Below are positions 16,236 to 44,268 of a stretch of 64,000 nucleotides of DNA, one piece after another. Each line of letters begins with the position of its first letter. Positions within the stretch are counted from its first letter, which is position 1. The stretch comes from an uncultured Porphyromonadaceae bacterium (GTDB lineage Bacteria; Bacteroidota; Bacteroidia; Bacteroidales; Muribaculaceae), in assembly GCA_947177635.1 (NCBI GenBank), contig CAMWVQ010000005.1, forward strand, positions 1 through 64,000. The letters are read 5' to 3'. The notes beneath the pieces are model-generated. The model ran no database searches and had not been told where the DNA came from. It was given only the letters and a program-made list of their open reading frames with translations. Both the position numbers and the translations under genes were made by a program.

Positions 16236-17441
16236 CGCCAGCGTGAGAGCATATTCGAGCCTGGCGGCGTTATATTCGCGGGCGGCGTCAACAAAGTAGC
16301 TTGTCTCCTGCAGGTATTCAAGCAGGGTTATTTCCCCACCCTCAAGCGCCATCTTGAGCAGACGGACATTGTTGGTGTTCTCAACCGCCGGGCCAAGCAT
16401 GGCAAGCTGACGTTCGAGCATATGCGCGCGACGGCAATCGGCATTCGCAGAGGCCACCATCTCCCGGAGCTTCATCTCATTGCCCAGCATCTCCGCCATA
16501 CCCTCAGCAGTTACCGCGTCAAGCGAAGAACCCCGCGAGAACACCGGCAAAGTCAGCCCTGCCGACAGACCGTTGAAATGCGTGCCCTCCTCATAGGCGT
16601 GGACATACCCCAATGTCAGCTTAGGGAACCGTTCCTTCGATGCGAGATTAATCTTTTCCAAGGCTACCTTCTCCCGGGCTTCCATCACACGGTACTGCGG
16701 AGAATTGCGCACCACAGGCTCCATTATCCCCTCATCCAGACTACACCCGTGGCCCGCCACAGGCAGCTGGTACATCGGATAGTCTGTCAGTGAGTCAAGC
16801 CAATCCTGCTTGATTTCGCCACCCGAGAGGGCTACAATCTCAGCCGTAAGGGCCGCGACATTTCCCTGCGCCTCATCATCTGCCGCCGAAGCCCGAGCAT
16901 GCTCGATTTTTATTTTGTTGAGGTCGAGGATGGAGACCTCACCCTTCTCCCAGGCGCGGGTGTAGGCTGCAGTCAGGGAGTCGAGATTCTCGTGGATTTC
17001 CTGGAGCATCATCAGCTCGCGGCGCGCACCGACAAGGGAGATAAGTTTCTGCTCAGCCTCATACATGGCCTCCGCCCCGACCGCCATACGCTGCGCGATG
17101 TCAAGGGAGTCGATAGCCCTGACCACACGCCGTGTGGCTCCCATCCTGCGGAAATCAGGCAGCTCCTGGCTGACGCCGGCGGACCACCGGCCTTGTTCAC
17201 CGGCCGACGATGGCCAGAGATATTCAAATTCCACTTCAGGGTCAGAAGGCACCACTTCCGCCTTCAGGCTTGATTTCTCGGCGATGAGCGACGCGCTCTC
17301 GGCTTGTCCGGCACTGATACTTGACGCAAGGCGCGAAGCGATATGCGCGAAGTCAGGTTCGGCGCCATACACCGCTCCCGTGGCGGCGATGGCCATTACT
17401 CCGGCGAAAATCAGTTTTATGCGGTCAGTCAATGAGTTCAT
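16155..17441 (-). CDS. TolC family outer-membrane efflux protein
   Basis: Heptad-rich SLTAAYTRAWEKGEVSILDLNKIKIEHA...EYLQETSYFVDAAREYNAARLEYALTLASL; start MNSLTDRIKLIFAGVMAIAATGAVYG. Confidence 0.88.
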   Translation of the reverse strand: MNSLTDRIKLIFAGVMAIAATGAVYGAEPDFAHIASRLASSISAGQAESASLIAEKSSLKAEVVPSDPEVEFEYLWPSSAGEQGRWSAGVSQELPDFRRMGATRRVVRAIDSLDIAQRMAVGAEAMYEAEQKLISLVGARRELMMLQEIHENLDSLTAAYTRAWEKGEVSILDLNKIKIEHARASAADDEAQGNVAALTAEIVALSGGEIKQDWLDSLTDYPMYQLPVAGHGCSLDEGIMEPVVRNSPQYRVMEAREKVALEKINLASKERFPKLTLGYVHAYEEGTHFNGLSAGLTLPVFSRGSSLDAVTAEGMAEMLGNEMKLREMVASANADCRRAHMLERQLAMLGPAVENTNNVRLLKMALEGGEITLLEYLQETSYFVDAAREYNAARLEYALTLASLARWSYQEQGLGVTASGGYGDGVKL

Positions 17442-20400
17442 TTTCTGTAATTTTTGTTGTTTGGACGGCAAAGTTACGATTTTTCTTCCGGTTTATGAAA
17501 CGGTAGAGTATCGGCACCACGAATATATTCAACGCCGTAGAGGAAATCAGGCCTCCGAGAATCACAATCGCGAGCGGACTCTGTATCTCGTTTCCCGGCT
17601 CATTACCCCGGAGGGCAAGCGGAATCAGGGCAAGCGCAGAGGTCAGGGCCGTCATCACGATAGGGGTAAGGCGGTCAGCCGAGCCTACCGCGATACGCTC
17701 CTCAAGCCCCATCCCCTCGTCGCGGAGATGATTGTAACGCGAGATGAGCAACATGCCGTTGCGGGTCGATATTCCCAGCAAGGATATGAAACCGATGATG
17801 GCAGGGATGTTAAGCTCCCCCCCGGTAATCACAAGAATCAGCACTCCCCCTATCATCGCCAGCGGCATGTTTATCAGTATGACGAGCGACTCGCGGAAAT
17901 CACGGAATTCACCGTACAGGAGCATCAGGATTATGGCCAGTGCCAGCAGCGAAGTAAGGGCGAGGGTGCGCGAAGCTGCCGCCTCACTCTCAAACTGCCC
18001 GCTGTAACGTATATGGTAGCCCTGGGGCATCTCCACATTGGCCGACACCTTGTCGCTGATTTCGTTGACCACCCCGCGGAGGTCGCGGCCATCCACATTG
18101 GCCGACACCACAAGGCGACGCACCGCATTCTCGCGGTTGATGGTGTTTGGCCCGCTCACCGACCTTATGTCGGCGAGATTGCCCAGCGGCACCTTCCCTT
18201 CGCGTGTGTCGACAGGCATCCGGCGCAGCCCCTCGACAGAAACATCTGCCGGGGTCTCGAATCTTACTGTCAGCGGAGCCGGGTAGCCATCCTCATACAC
18301 CTGCGACACCTGTTTCCCTGCCATGGCAACATCGACGAACTCCGAGAACCGGTTCATCGCCACCCCGTAACGGGCAAGCATCTCACGGCGCGGCACAATC
18401 TCGATCTGGGGCCGCTCAATCTGCTGTTCGATGTTCACATCAACAACACCGCCGACACCCTTGACAACTTCGCTCACCGACTGACCTATGGCGTAAAGAC
18501 GGTTGAGGTCGGCACCGAAAATCTTGATGGCAATCTGCGCCTCCGTGCCTGAAAGCATGGCGTCGATACGGTGGGAAATCGGCTGACCGATCTCAATGCT
18601 CGCCCCGGGAATCACCGAGAGCTTCTCGCGCAACTCGGCCACCATCTCGCGGCGTCCCCGACCGTCAAGCCTGTAAGGAGCCTCGATTTCCGACACATTC
18701 ACTCCGAGGGAGTGCTCGTCAAGCTCGGCACGTCCGGTCTTGCGGGCCACCGTGCTCACCTCCGGCACCGACAGGATTATCTCCTCGGCCATACGACCGA
18801 TACGGTCACTCTCCTCCAGGGATATGCCCGGTAGTGTGGAGACATTTATGGTCAGCGAGCCTTCGTTGAAGTTCGGAAGGAAGCTCCTTCCAAGATTGAA
18901 AAACAGTATCAGCGACACCACGAACAGCACGCCGACCGAACCGGTCACCATCGCCGGACGCCGCATGCACCAGGCGAGGGATTTCCCATAAGAGCGTTTC
19001 ATCGCAGCAGCCACACGGGGTTCTTTCCCCAGCGCGTCATCCTCCTTGCGGCTTCCGAGCAGGTATGAGCAAAGCACCGGAGTGAGTGTGAGGGCGACAA
19101 CGGTTGATGCCGCCAGCGCGACGATAAACGCCACCCCGAGGGGGATGAGCATGCGCCCCTCCATCCCCGACAGGAAGAAGAGGGGGAGGAAACTGGCGAT
19201 TATGATGAGGGAGGAATTGAAAATAGGCTTCCTCACCTCCTTTGACGCGTCATAGACCACCTGCACCACGCTGCGCCGCCGCGACTCGGGCAATGCCCGG
19301 TTCTCGCGCAGACGTTTGTAGACATTCTCCACATCAACAATAGCGTCATCTACCAGCGAACCGATGGCGATGGCGATGCCGCCAAGACTCATAGTGTTTA
19401 TTGTCACACCCATGGCCCGGAGGATGATTACTGATATGATTATCGACAACGGCAACGCCACAAGCGACACCAATGTCGTGCGCAGGTTCATCAGGAAGAG
19501 AAACAGGACGATTATCACCATCAATGCCCCTTCGAGCAACGAGGCCTGGAGATTGCTGATAGAGTTTGAGATGAATTCCGACTGGCGGAAGATGTCGGCA
19601 GACACGGTGACATCAGGCGGCAGGCTCTTTTTAAGTTCCTCAATCTGTCGGTCAAGCTCTTCGGTAAGCCCGATGGTGCCGGTGTCGGGCTGCTTCGTGA
19701 TTGTCAGTATCACCGACTCGCGTCCCTTGACGGAAGCGGTGCCGATACGGGGCAGCTTACCCCCGAACCTGACTGTGGCGACATCACCGAGCCTCAGGTT
19801 GCGGCCTGACTCGGAAGGGATGGCCAGGGCGGCCACCTCTTCAGGGGAGGCGGAGTTGACCGCCCCCTTGACAAGGTATTCATTGCCGTGGGCATACATC
19901 ACACTCCCCGTGGCGTTGTCGTTGCTCCCTTCAAGAGCCTCAAGCACCTCGGCGAGAGTGACACCGAGGAATTTCATCTTATCGGGGGAGAGAAGCACCT
20001 GCATCTCCCTCTCCTCACCGCCGATTACCGACACCTGCGCCACACCAGGGGTGGCAAGCAGCTGGCGCGTCACCTGACGGTCTACCATATTGCGCAGGTC
20101 AAGCACCGAAGTGGAGTCGGGTGTAAGGCCTATTATCATTATCTCCCCCAGAATGGACGACTGCGGCCCCATAACCGGTGTGCCGACCCCCGGCGGGAGG
20201 GTTTCCCCGACGGTGGCGAGACGTTCGGCCACAGTCTGACGAGCGTGGTATATGTCGGTGCCCCAGTCAAATTCCACCCACACCACCGAGAAGCCCGTGG
20301 AGCTTGACGAACGTGTGCGCCTGACCCCGTTAGAGCCTGTCATAGCGGTCTCCACCGGGAACGTCACAAGTTTCTCAACCTCCTCCGGGGCCAGGCCCGG

Positions 20401-20559
20401 GGCCTCGGTCATGACAACCACGGTCGGGGCGTTGAGGTCGGGGAATATATCAATCTCGGAGCGGGTAAGCACCACGCATCCGGCTATGGTGATAACGGCG
20501 GCAAGCACCAGTATCACCACTCTGTTGAGCAATGAGAATCTGATTATGCGGTCAAGCAT
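17425..20559 (-). CDS. CusA/CzcA-type heavy-metal efflux RND transporter
   Basis: 1044 aa; MLDRIIRFSLLNRVVILVLAAV, GGIAIAIGSLVDDAIVDVENVYKRL, ISLLGISTRNGMLLISRY. Confidence 0.95.
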   Translation of the reverse strand: MLDRIIRFSLLNRVVILVLAAVITIAGCVVLTRSEIDIFPDLNAPTVVVMTEAPGLAPEEVEKLVTFPVETAMTGSNGVRRTRSSSSTGFSVVWVEFDWGTDIYHARQTVAERLATVGETLPPGVGTPVMGPQSSILGEIMIIGLTPDSTSVLDLRNMVDRQVTRQLLATPGVAQVSVIGGEEREMQVLLSPDKMKFLGVTLAEVLEALEGSNDNATGSVMYAHGNEYLVKGAVNSASPEEVAALAIPSESGRNLRLGDVATVRFGGKLPRIGTASVKGRESVILTITKQPDTGTIGLTEELDRQIEELKKSLPPDVTVSADIFRQSEFISNSISNLQASLLEGALMVIIVLFLFLMNLRTTLVSLVALPLSIIISVIILRAMGVTINTMSLGGIAIAIGSLVDDAIVDVENVYKRLRENRALPESRRRSVVQVVYDASKEVRKPIFNSSLIIIASFLPLFFLSGMEGRMLIPLGVAFIVALAASTVVALTLTPVLCSYLLGSRKEDDALGKEPRVAAAMKRSYGKSLAWCMRRPAMVTGSVGVLFVVSLILFFNLGRSFLPNFNEGSLTINVSTLPGISLEESDRIGRMAEEIILSVPEVSTVARKTGRAELDEHSLGVNVSEIEAPYRLDGRGRREMVAELREKLSVIPGASIEIGQPISHRIDAMLSGTEAQIAIKIFGADLNRLYAIGQSVSEVVKGVGGVVDVNIEQQIERPQIEIVPRREMLARYGVAMNRFSEFVDVAMAGKQVSQVYEDGYPAPLTVRFETPADVSVEGLRRMPVDTREGKVPLGNLADIRSVSGPNTINRENAVRRLVVSANVDGRDLRGVVNEISDKVSANVEMPQGYHIRYSGQFESEAAASRTLALTSLLALAIILMLLYGEFRDFRESLVILINMPLAMIGGVLILVITGGELNIPAIIGFISLLGISTRNGMLLISRYNHLRDEGMGLEERIAVGSADRLTPIVMTALTSALALIPLALRGNEPGNEIQSPLAIVILGGLISSTALNIFVVPILYRFINRKKNRNFAVQTTKITENELID

Positions 20560-20564
20560 AAGTT

Positions 20565-20747
20565 AGTAACTGTTCAAAATTATTTTATATTAACCGGTCA
20601 TCTTATTTCAATGTTTCTTCGGCAAAATTTTTGAATCTTTTCCTCTCTTCATCAGTCGTGTAGCTCGCTACACTCCCTCTTCATAGAGAAAAATCTTCTA
20701 AAAATTTCACTCGAACAAACATTAAAATAATTTCGACCAGTTACTTA
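20565..20747. repeat. MITE/REP-like long imperfect palindrome, copy 1 (full-length form)
   Basis: Starts AGTAACTGTTCAAAATTATTTTATATTAACCGGTCATCTTATTTCAATGTTT (identical to copy 2) and ends CTCGAACAAACATTAAAATAATTTCGACCAGTTACTTA; centre GTGTAGC-TC-GCTACAC. Confidence 0.9.
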
Positions 20748-20777: not shown

Positions 20778-21959
20778 TCAATGGGAGTGGGAATGCCCTT
20801 CAGGCACCGCGCCGGATGTCTCGGCAAGCCTGACGAATGTCATACCCTTGCTGACCACCAGTTCGCCGGGCTGCAGACCGGAAATGATTTCCCGTCTCCG
20901 GCCATCAGTCTGCCCAATCGCAACGGGTCGTTTCTCATAATGCCCCGTGGCCTTCTCCACATAAACGAAATATTTGCCCTGCTGCTCGCTCACCGCCGAT
21001 TCGGCTACGGACAGGACGCCTTGGCGTGTTGAGCCGAGAAGATACACCTCACAGTATGTGCCGTTGATTACCTCCCCTTTACCTTTAGGGAGAGTGAAAT
21101 ACACCGGGATATAGCCCCCTGTGGCCGACGAGACCGAACGGGAGGAAATCATCTTCCCTCCGGAAGCGATTACATCTATGACCTCATCGGAATAGGCCGG
21201 GCGGAAACGCGCCCCGGTGATTCCCGCCAGTCGGGATGCGGAACTTTCAGGCAAATCGGCCCGCAGGGTCAGCGCATTGTTGGAGGATATGGTGGCGATA
21301 GTCTGCCCGGCATCGACAAACTGGCCGTCAACAACATCAATCGACGTTATCACCCCGCTTACAGGTGCGGTGGCCGACGTAGACGCGCCGGAAGCTGCTC
21401 CCCCCATCGCCACGCGTGTCTCCTCCACCCTCTGCAAGGCGGCGTTGTAGTCGCGGGTCGATACGATTCCCTCCTTGTGAAGCGGGGTCAGGCGGTCAAG
21501 CTCTCGTTTTGCGGCCTGATACGCCACCCTCGCCGACTCGTTGGGGTCGCCCCCGCTCATCCCACGGGCAGAGACCGTTGCGATTGACCTCCCGGCAGAG
21601 ACCGACATGCCCGCCGATATTCCGGGGGAGAGCCTGACGATTCCCCCCTGACGGGCGGCAACCGCCCCCTCCGAACCGGGCATGGCTGAAATCTCGCCGG
21701 AGACCTTCAGCGTCTCGGAAAACTCCCCGGGCCTTACGGTATCAGCCTCCACCACGAGTTTTTCAAGCTGGTGCGGCGTAAGCACAATCAGCCCCTCGTC
21801 ATCGTGGTCATCGGCTTGAGCCGGCTGGTGGTCGTGCGGTTCGTGGTCATGGCCTTCGTGGCCTGTATGGTCGGAATGGTCGCCTGAACATGCTCCAAGC
21901 ATGAACAGCAAACCCGCCGCCGGGACAATCCTGCGCAGATAACGCATCTTATTACACAT
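20778..21959 (-). CDS. Efflux RND transporter periplasmic adaptor (CusB/CzcB-like) with His-rich N- and C-termini
   Basis: CSGDHSDHTGHEGHDHEPHDHQPAQADDHDDEG; biotinyl-lipoyl-like and barrel segments; C-term VPEGHSHSH. Start MCNKMRYLRRIVPAAGLLF (21959 or 21947). Confidence 0.9.
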   Translation of the reverse strand: MCNKMRYLRRIVPAAGLLFMLGACSGDHSDHTGHEGHDHEPHDHQPAQADDHDDEGLIVLTPHQLEKLVVEADTVRPGEFSETLKVSGEISAMPGSEGAVAARQGGIVRLSPGISAGMSVSAGRSIATVSARGMSGGDPNESARVAYQAAKRELDRLTPLHKEGIVSTRDYNAALQRVEETRVAMGGAASGASTSATAPVSGVITSIDVVDGQFVDAGQTIATISSNNALTLRADLPESSASRLAGITGARFRPAYSDEVIDVIASGGKMISSRSVSSATGGYIPVYFTLPKGKGEVINGTYCEVYLLGSTRQGVLSVAESAVSEQQGKYFVYVEKATGHYEKRPVAIGQTDGRRREIISGLQPGELVVSKGMTFVRLAETSGAVPEGHSHSH

Positions 21960-22050
21960 AGACAGAAGATATATAGAAGTGGTCAGATTAATCATACCGC
22001 AAAGTTAGCGAGTATGCCCATCTCGTGGATTAAATTATTTCGGGATAAAA

Positions 22051-42454: not shown

Positions 42455-42469
42455 ATAGGGCGTGGACTT

Positions 42470-42588
42470 AAGTAACTGTTCAAAATTATTTTATATTAAC
42501 CGGTCATCTTATTTCAATGTTTGTTCGAGGAAAATCTCCTAAAAATTTTACTCGAACAAACATTAAAATAATTTCGACCAGTTACTTA
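42470..42588. repeat. MITE/REP-like long imperfect palindrome, copy 2 (centre-deleted form)
   Basis: AAGTAACTG...CAGTTACTT termini; inner arms AATGTTTGTTCGAG / CTCGAACAAACATT are a perfect 14-bp inverted repeat; flanking arms near-identical to copy 1. Confidence 0.9.
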
Positions 42589-44268
42589 TCAGAATGAATA
42601 ATTGTAGGAGAGCGAGAGGCCACGGGTGGCGGGCACCCAGCGGCAGACACCGCCGGAGCAGTTGTAGCCGGCGCGTGTGCGCCCATACGAGACACTGAAA
42701 CGGTTTGCCCCGTATGAACCGGTCACCCCCGCCTGGTAATAATGGGTGTCGGTGCGTCCGCAATTCCAAAGGTCGCTGACAGCGAAAGACCAATGAGGGG
42801 TGAGGGTCAGCTCGGCCATAGCGTAAAGCCAGTCGCCGTCGTCATCGGGGGTGGTCATATACTGCAACTCACCCCTGAGAATCGTGCGCGGCGTTATTGA
42901 CCAGCGTCCCTCGGCCACGAATATGTTGGCGTTCACCTTGTCACCCTCCCCCTGTATGGCGGCCTTGTCGAAGAACTGGTTCATATACATCAGTGTGAGG
43001 GTGAATGGGCGCGAGAGACGTTTCTCCATCATCAGGTTGATGTCGCGGTAGAGAAGGCTTCCGGCCTTGAAAAAGCCACACGTCACCCCGTCTGAACCCA
43101 TAGGCATTGACTTGTCGGCCCTGGGAAGCGAATATGAAAGGGAGGCGTTGAGACGGATACGGGTGCCATAGCGGCCACCCAGGGGTGTGCCTCGCTTGAA
43201 GTTTATGGCCGCTTCCGCCTGGTAGGCCCACTCCCCTGCCAGCCGGGTGGCGTAGGGATAAAACGACGGCAGGGTGTAGGAATGCTGTGTGGTGAAAGGC
43301 GCGAGGTTGTTGATGAAACCTGAATTGCCGCTTATTGTCCTGTCCTGACGGAACACCATATTGTCGGCTCGCCGTGCCTGTACCATAACACTCTTTCCCG
43401 ACTTCATCCAGGAGAGTGACAGCATGGCCGCGTTGCCATGCTTGTAGGTGTAGCCGTTGTCGAATGACGGGTCCTGCCCTTTCCAGGCGAATTCCCCATA
43501 AAGAGCGAACGATTTATAGCTCAGGCGTGTACGGGCATCAATGGCGTTGACCGTGCGCGGCAGGTTAAGGCGGAGGTCTTTCCCGGGAACCATCACGTCG
43601 TGGTCATCCTCGCGGTGGAGAATCCATCCAGCGCCGAGTTTCCATCCCCATCCGGCGCCACGCAACGCTGGCAACCAGCGGGAGATGTCGCCTTCGACAT
43701 CCGCGCCCGCAATCCACGAGCCGGTGTCCCAATGCCAGTATCGCCGCTGCACCCCTCCGAGGGCTTTCAACGTTAGCCCCTCGACCGAAGTCCACCTCAC
43801 GCGGCCTCCCCTGACGGCATTGTCGATGCCGAGGGCGCGGTCTTCGTAAGCGCGGAAAATCAGACCGGAACCAAACTGCTCGTAAAAATCCCCTGCGGTA
43901 AGCTCCAGCCCTTTCACCGGCTCACCCTTGACATAAAAGTAAGGCACTCCCCATCCTTTGAACTCCGGCTCGAAGCCAGGGAGGGGATGGTCGAGATATT
44001 CAAACCGCGCCCCGGCCGAGAAGCGTTCACCCTGGAGCCATAGGTCAAGGTATGTGTTGGTGTTGAACTTTCCGTCATCTGTGGTCGATCCGATTTTGTC
44101 ATCGGCCTCGGGGAAAAGCATATCGGTCTGGAACGACCCGTGCAGGGCGAGCTTGCCGGGCCAGAGGTCAATCGCCCCGGCTTCCCAGAGAGGGGAAACC
44201 GACGCGATTAAACCTGTGGCGACAGCAATCCGCCGCATAAGCCCGAATTTGGCGAAACTTATCGTCAT
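42589..44268 (-). CDS. DUF6029-like beta-barrel outer-membrane protein
   Basis: 559 aa; signal region, alternating beta-strand pattern, C-term RGLSLSYNYSF ending in aromatic residue; resembles DUF6029 proteins. Confidence 0.65.
   Translation of the reverse strand: MTISFAKFGLMRRIAVATGLIASVSPLWEAGAIDLWPGKLALHGSFQTDMLFPEADDKIGSTTDDGKFNTNTYLDLWLQGERFSAGARFEYLDHPLPGFEPEFKGWGVPYFYVKGEPVKGLELTAGDFYEQFGSGLIFRAYEDRALGIDNAVRGGRVRWTSVEGLTLKALGGVQRRYWHWDTGSWIAGADVEGDISRWLPALRGAGWGWKLGAGWILHREDDHDVMVPGKDLRLNLPRTVNAIDARTRLSYKSFALYGEFAWKGQDPSFDNGYTYKHGNAAMLSLSWMKSGKSVMVQARRADNMVFRQDRTISGNSGFINNLAPFTTQHSYTLPSFYPYATRLAGEWAYQAEAAINFKRGTPLGGRYGTRIRLNASLSYSLPRADKSMPMGSDGVTCGFFKAGSLLYRDINLMMEKRLSRPFTLTLMYMNQFFDKAAIQGEGDKVNANIFVAEGRWSITPRTILRGELQYMTTPDDDGDWLYAMAELTLTPHWSFAVSDLWNCGRTDTHYYQAGVTGSYGANRFSVSYGRTRAGYNCSGGVCRWVPATRGLSLSYNYSF

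Follow-up and report, generated by a model that had tools for sequence, protein, structure and literature searches.

A probable IS630-related MITE beside start codons in Bacteroidales, with a predicted hairpin in the sense RNA

The repeat and its two forms

Positions 42471–42586 of the window (the whole 64,000-nt stretch of DNA analysed here) are occupied by an inverted repeat that separates two co-directional genes and has a longer counterpart elsewhere in the window. The locus raises the question of what this repeat is, how it moves and whether its folding is selected. An earlier note on the two copies had suggested selection for folding or hairpin-mediated mobility. The features under discussion are the following.

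42469..42470, no strand: TA flank, putative target duplication, read from the sequence
42471..42586, minus strand (the direction of the adjacent gene): window copy (copy 2), short form of the MITE, 116 bp; further copies in the genome and an empty orthologous site in genome G008
42471..42493, no strand: LEFT terminal inverted repeat, gene-proximal; its outward strand contains TAATTTTG
42495..42522, no strand: second, inner unit related to the terminal repeat but diverged from it; its partner in the predicted sense RNA fold is the right arm
42516..42529, no strand: left inner arm, AATGTTTGTTCGAG, read from the sequence
42551..42564, no strand: right inner arm, CTCGAACAAACATT, read from the sequence
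42564..42586, no strand: RIGHT terminal inverted repeat, distal; its outward strand contains TAATTTCG
42587..42588, no strand: TA flank, putative target duplication, read from the sequence
42497..42584, minus strand: predicted sense-RNA hairpin (RNA fold -44.5 kcal/mol), with 42471-42496 unpaired beside the start codon
41615..42454, minus strand: downstream gene, Omp28-like (PF11551), its ATG 16 nt from the window copy
42589..44268, minus strand: co-directional gene on the upstream side, DUF6029 (PF19494), with a stop codon directly beside the TA flank of the window copy
20565..20745, minus strand: copy 1, the 181-bp long form of this MITE, with the ATG of an acrB-like gene 5 nt away; empty site in G008
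17425..20559, minus strand: RND transporter gene (ACR_tran) downstream of copy 1
20778..21995, minus strand: HlyD-type membrane fusion protein gene upstream of copy 1

Both outer parts of copy 1 are 96.6–98% identical to the window copy, and copy 1 carries 65 additional central bases (181 versus 116 bp), which bears out the earlier description of copy 2 as the two arms of copy 1 without a centre of ~64 bases. The inner arms of the window copy form the perfect 14-bp inverted repeat previously described, within a 27-nt pair that is 93% complementary. The left inner arm of copy 1 is AATGTTTCTTCGGC, again as reported, and the left arm of the window copy does comprise a pair of related units, the outer one being the terminal repeat and the inner one a copy of it, TTAACCGGTCATCTTATTTCAATGTTT. 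Copy 1 splits an RND efflux operon between its membrane-fusion and AcrB-type genes, a placement that recalls the Correia element at the mtrCDE efflux locus of Neisseria.

Copies within and beyond the genome

The genome of the window (G000) contains ~25–30 dispersed copies, a number taken from search output. Fifteen others match the window copy at 90–97% identity over ~118 bp, and the repeat is thus far beyond chance. The set includes 16 nearly full short copies and three complete long ones, so that both subfamilies proposed earlier are present. It also holds a tandem pair, a single divergent copy, remnants of 33 and 22 bp and several copies truncated where contigs end. At least nine contigs end inside the element (C10, C14, C24, C25, C38, C39, C52, C83 and C103); the element has therefore fragmented the genome assembly, and its copies are undercounted. 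With lengths of 116 and 181 bp, no coding sequence, terminal inverted repeats of 23–25 bp and dispersed copies, the repeat has the properties of a MITE.

The short form probably arose from the long form by loss of its centre and spread afterwards; the GAG of the short form derives from the deletion junction. Across the 16 short copies there is little variation in the right inner arm, and the left arm is mismatched in 13 of them. The left-arm base opposite the C of the right arm is G in three copies and C or T in the other 13, so the perfect arm of the window copy reflects a one-sided change in a minority of copies and does not demonstrate compensation.

Relatives of the element occur in most genomes of the window's genus and in two further genera. 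In G036, the elements are ~195 bp long, with ends as in the window element and a different interior. No Rfam family reached its gathering score on the elements, and only chance-level matches, on copy 1, were obtained; the exact end sequence of the element was absent from the viral contigs searched. Inspection of protein sequences in the window's own genome showed that the neighbouring genes include murG, lysyl-tRNA synthetase, malate dehydrogenase and an RND efflux pump. A functional regulon was rejected, as these are unrelated housekeeping and envelope genes.

Two further kinds of short repeat were observed. Very short forms of ~22–34 bp, in which the two terminal repeats are joined via a shared AAATTATTTT or TCGAA, are present in several genera (G000:C32:12207-12241, L037; G000:C48:5970-5993, L039; L109, L118, L126, L226, L248, L260, L262, L275 and L277) and may be internal deletions or excision scars. 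A second Bacteroidales MITE family has the left end TAAGTAGATGAGCAAATTTAGTTTAC, a right end as in the window element and a GC-rich hairpin interior (L223, L225, L230, L235, L236, L255-L257, L265, L278 and L288); many of its copies likewise abut start codons.

Insertion and the IS630 link

The joined flanks of four copies, including copy 1 and the window copy, each match contiguous sequence in G008, a genome of the same genus that yielded no copy of the element. These contiguous empty sites establish the copies as insertions. The alignments fit insertion at TA, with the two-base accounting exact at one site only (L006) and loose at the others. TA is present on both sides of nearly all copies; the left flank of copy 1 is TT.

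At least 107 genome-contig stretches contain the terminal 21-mer WTAATTTTGAACAGTTACTTA; they are from Bacteroidales wherever the listed title names a group. In P. denticola (L281, 6859-7959), the same terminus closes a TA-flanked, 1,097-bp IS630-family IS, whose overlapping frames encode an HTH protein (HTH_32) and a DDE_3 protein (5.9e-29). The LEFT terminal repeat of the window copy matches the 3′ end (IRR) of this IS, the left end of which is AGTAAGTGAACAAAATTAATTT. Insertion sequences in Segatella maculosa and a Bacteroides MAG have the same arrangement at the shared-terminus end, and all three end in the same 20 bases as the element. Muribaculaceae also contain relatives, at 65–73% identity, whose reading frames are intact; one such IS is present twice in G125, in a block of 1,114 bp bounded by TAAGTA and TACTTA.

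A search of the window's own genome, a fragmented draft from which a collapsed copy may be missing, recovered no IS630 transposase. Elsewhere in the genus, only damaged or partial transposase copies were found (G008 and G009). One of these, on G009:C100 (L068 1414-2286, 1756-2190), is degenerate and interleaved with a frame that resembles IS66; a long MITE copy lies ~90 bp away. The copies in the window's genome may be fossils, or the transposase gene may lie in unassembled sequence; a source of transposase in the same genome is usual for a MITE and not required.

It is concluded that the element is, with high confidence, an IS630-related MITE. The TA flanks, the empty sites and the terminal repeats common to IS630-family insertion sequences suggest that a DDE transposase acted in trans, and IS630-family enzymes probably mobilised the element; the hairpin-mediated mobility suggested earlier finds no support here.

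Placement at start codons

The earlier note missed the placement of the element beside start codons. Among 52 elements with adequate flanks, 35 have the LEFT end at most 40 nt before a start codon and four have the RIGHT end alone in such a position (p 3e-7), with the surrounding genes called heuristically. A start codon lies within 40 nt on either side in 39 of the 52 (75%), compared with 40% of random intergenic TAs drawn from the window (Fisher p 6e-6). The LEFT preference recurs in G000, G004, G015 and G036. Of 29 matching ends in other Bacteroidales, 14 have a start codon within 40 nt. The autonomous IS copies are not placed in this way (one of eight IRR ends near a start, in a small sample), and selection on the short element is for this reason a likelier cause than targeting by the transposase.

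Folding and covariation

Folding of the window copy, the check proposed earlier, gave -26.9 kcal/mol (z -8.5) for single-stranded DNA and -44.5 kcal/mol (z -9.5) for the gene-sense RNA. In the predicted RNA fold, the inner unit is the partner of the right terminal repeat, and the 26 nt nearest the gene are free. Similarly, the right end of the long form is predicted to pair with the inner unit in the window's species, G009, G015 and a Barnesiella MAG; in G004, the terminal pairing is preferred.

Compensatory change, which the inner arms of the 16 short copies do not demonstrate, was observed across species. In an alignment of 26 long forms, 19 of the 60 pairs of the hairpin changed on both sides. 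These changes occupy 145 cells, compared with 55 +/- 7 in shuffles and 8–46 in slid registers, where cells count related sequences and not independent events. The competing terminal pairing is nearly invariant across long forms and is therefore uninformative on covariation. Read on the gene-sense strand over the whole register, deviations from the hairpin comprise 147 G.U and 19 A.C cells; when the same arms are paired at random, the ratio is 255:152. For pairs that are Watson–Crick in the reference, the counts are 58–83 G.U and 6–17 A.C over six different references. This asymmetry fits pairing in the sense RNA, and the gene-sense strand seems to be the pairing strand. A transcription-linked mutation bias could add to the asymmetry and would likewise imply transcription toward the gene.

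Folding thus appears, from these sequence comparisons, to be under selection, as the earlier note had proposed, with the support coming from cross-species covariation and the sense-strand G.U bias rather than from the arms that it had cited. Simulated in-place flips lowered the accessibility of the start region in close (at most 5 nt) LEFT-proximal cases in the window's genus. In G036, start accessibility was generally not lowered, and a model in which this fold frees the start codon failed for that genome. G036 and G004 depart from the free-leader fold, yet have the same orientation bias.

Alternative explanations

Placement and orientation could also be produced by a promoter or by the transposase itself. 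If the LEFT end carried a Bacteroidetes −7 box (TAATTTTG; consensus TAnnTTTG), copies would survive where they drive the next gene. The sequence TAATTTTG is indeed found at the gene-proximal end in the window's genus and in G036, with degraded versions distally (TAATTTCG, TAATTATG), and Correia elements carry outward promoters (PMC10969869). However, the proximal end in G015 is mostly TAATTTTA, with TAATTTTG distal and the orientation bias unchanged; in G004 the bias persists although both ends have the box; and no clear −33 box is found at the right spacing. The box as the cause of orientation was rejected on the evidence of G015 and G004, and a mobile promoter is considered a rather weak candidate. 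Less credit still is given to a transposase that selects DNA just 5′ of starts in a fixed orientation and so generates the placement without selection. Such targeting would explain the recurrence of placement and orientation across genera, as well as the repeated use of TATG, a site at which the TA preserves the ATG. It is difficult to reconcile with the single start-proximal end among eight same-ended IS copies, with flanking bases beyond TA that are alike at both ends and with the existence of convergent-intergenic and RIGHT-proximal copies.

The matched arms might instead be maintained in DNA, through correction of quasipalindromes by template switching during replication, in which case folding would have no function. 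The short forms have at least three junction types, several of which fit joins between inverted arms, and among own-genome copies (L001-L016) the loop of ~22 bp that the inner arms enclose is found either way round, as if inverted between the 14-bp arms. Both features fit template switching between inverted arms, which would also account for the three copies whose left arm exactly matches the right. A DNA-level process nevertheless predicts strand symmetry, and the gene-sense deviations are asymmetric to the extent given above; as a full explanation it is judged unlikely, if slightly less so than targeting. Two other mobile systems are far less probable than any of these. An inverton, an invertible promoter flipped by a site-specific recombinase, would be in keeping with inverted repeats upstream of genes in Bacteroidales and with the few oppositely oriented copies, but is very hard to square with the presence of near-identical copies beside unrelated genes, with the empty sites and with an IS630 that has the same ends. 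Least probable of all is a REPIN mobilised by a RAYT (Y1) transposase. A Y1-like protein of ~320 aa with a weak Y1_Tnp (RAYT-like) domain, its gene unflanked by repeats, is encoded in several genomes of the genus, including the window's own (L091, L087, L088, L089, L090 and L092). No element termini were found near the Y1 genes at the loci examined, where this partner was rejected; Y1 matches do not track the element, with none in the copy-rich G009; and TA flanks with IS630 ends are a better fit to the data.

Comparison with known elements

The element adds to the MITE class a new member that has IS630-type ends and a Correia/RUP-like architecture. The Correia/NEMIS elements of Neisseria exist as ~107- and ~155-bp forms that differ by a 50-bp internal segment, have TA termini and terminal inverted repeats and lie mostly just 5′ of genes; their long RNA stem-loop is cleaved by RNase III, and some contain promoters (PMC2229807, PMC10969869, PMC2649163). 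Compared by architecture as given in the literature, the window element resembles them in its two size forms, TA termini, terminal repeats and gene-upstream location. It differs in belonging to another phylum and in its IS630-matching ends, doubled inner unit and covarying fold with sense bias. Its predicted fold would be compatible with RNase III processing of the Correia/NEMIS kind.

RUP of Streptococcus pneumoniae is a ~107-bp MITE with a TA target, for which mobilisation in trans by the IS630-Spn1 transposase via common ends has been proposed (PMC2229807). Set side by side by description, the two elements have ends common with an IS630, and the window element has a putative TA target as well, in different phyla; RUP reportedly favours IS-rich regions, whereas the window element favours start codons. 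The Bacteroidales IS630 (DDE_3) insertion sequences have the same terminal ~18–20 bp at one end, TA flanks and a DDE_3 transposase with an HTH protein, but are 1.1 kb long with two reading frames, and the sampled copies lie away from start codons. BrickBuilt, from Porphyromonas gingivalis, is an intergenic MITE with promoter activity shown in E. coli (PMC4596501). Its host belongs to the same order, Bacteroidales, as that of the window element; it differs in its terminal repeats (CCGAAAGGTCTC), its 23-nt minisatellite and its distance of 49–591 nt from coding sequences. The Prevotella repeat PINSR is without terminal repeats and is not the window element (PMC4755523).

Proposed model and significance

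The account preferred here, and judged somewhat more likely than not as a whole, is that of an IS630-related MITE mobilised in trans, kept LEFT-end-first upstream of start codons and forming a hairpin in the sense leader. An IS630-family transposase would recognise ends of the form TA-AGTAACTG(T/G)TC... and insert the element at TA. Copies would then persist mainly where the LEFT end adjoins the upstream side of a start codon, and read-through transcription would make the element part of the mRNA leader. In this leader, the right terminal repeat and the inner unit would form one long hairpin, which in the window's species, G009, the genus of G015 and the Barnesiella MAG would leave unpaired both the start codon and the AU-rich terminal stretch of ~26 nt. 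The hairpin would affect mRNA processing, stability or access to the start codon.

A broader proposal is offered tentatively, as the less probable extension of this account. The order-wide set of MITEs may constitute a mobile 5′ leader, kept at starts because its sense hairpin is useful, or at least harmless, to the gene; the doubled end would free the start region in most lineages, and selection on RNA, not on transposition, would have shaped the arms.

If the account is true, Bacteroidales gain a Correia/RUP-like element with a candidate mobiliser, which would rewire the leaders of ordinary genes. The strand bias in covariation would offer a way to separate RNA-level selection from the mere upkeep of palindromes in MITEs, and the placement rule is directly testable in culturable species.
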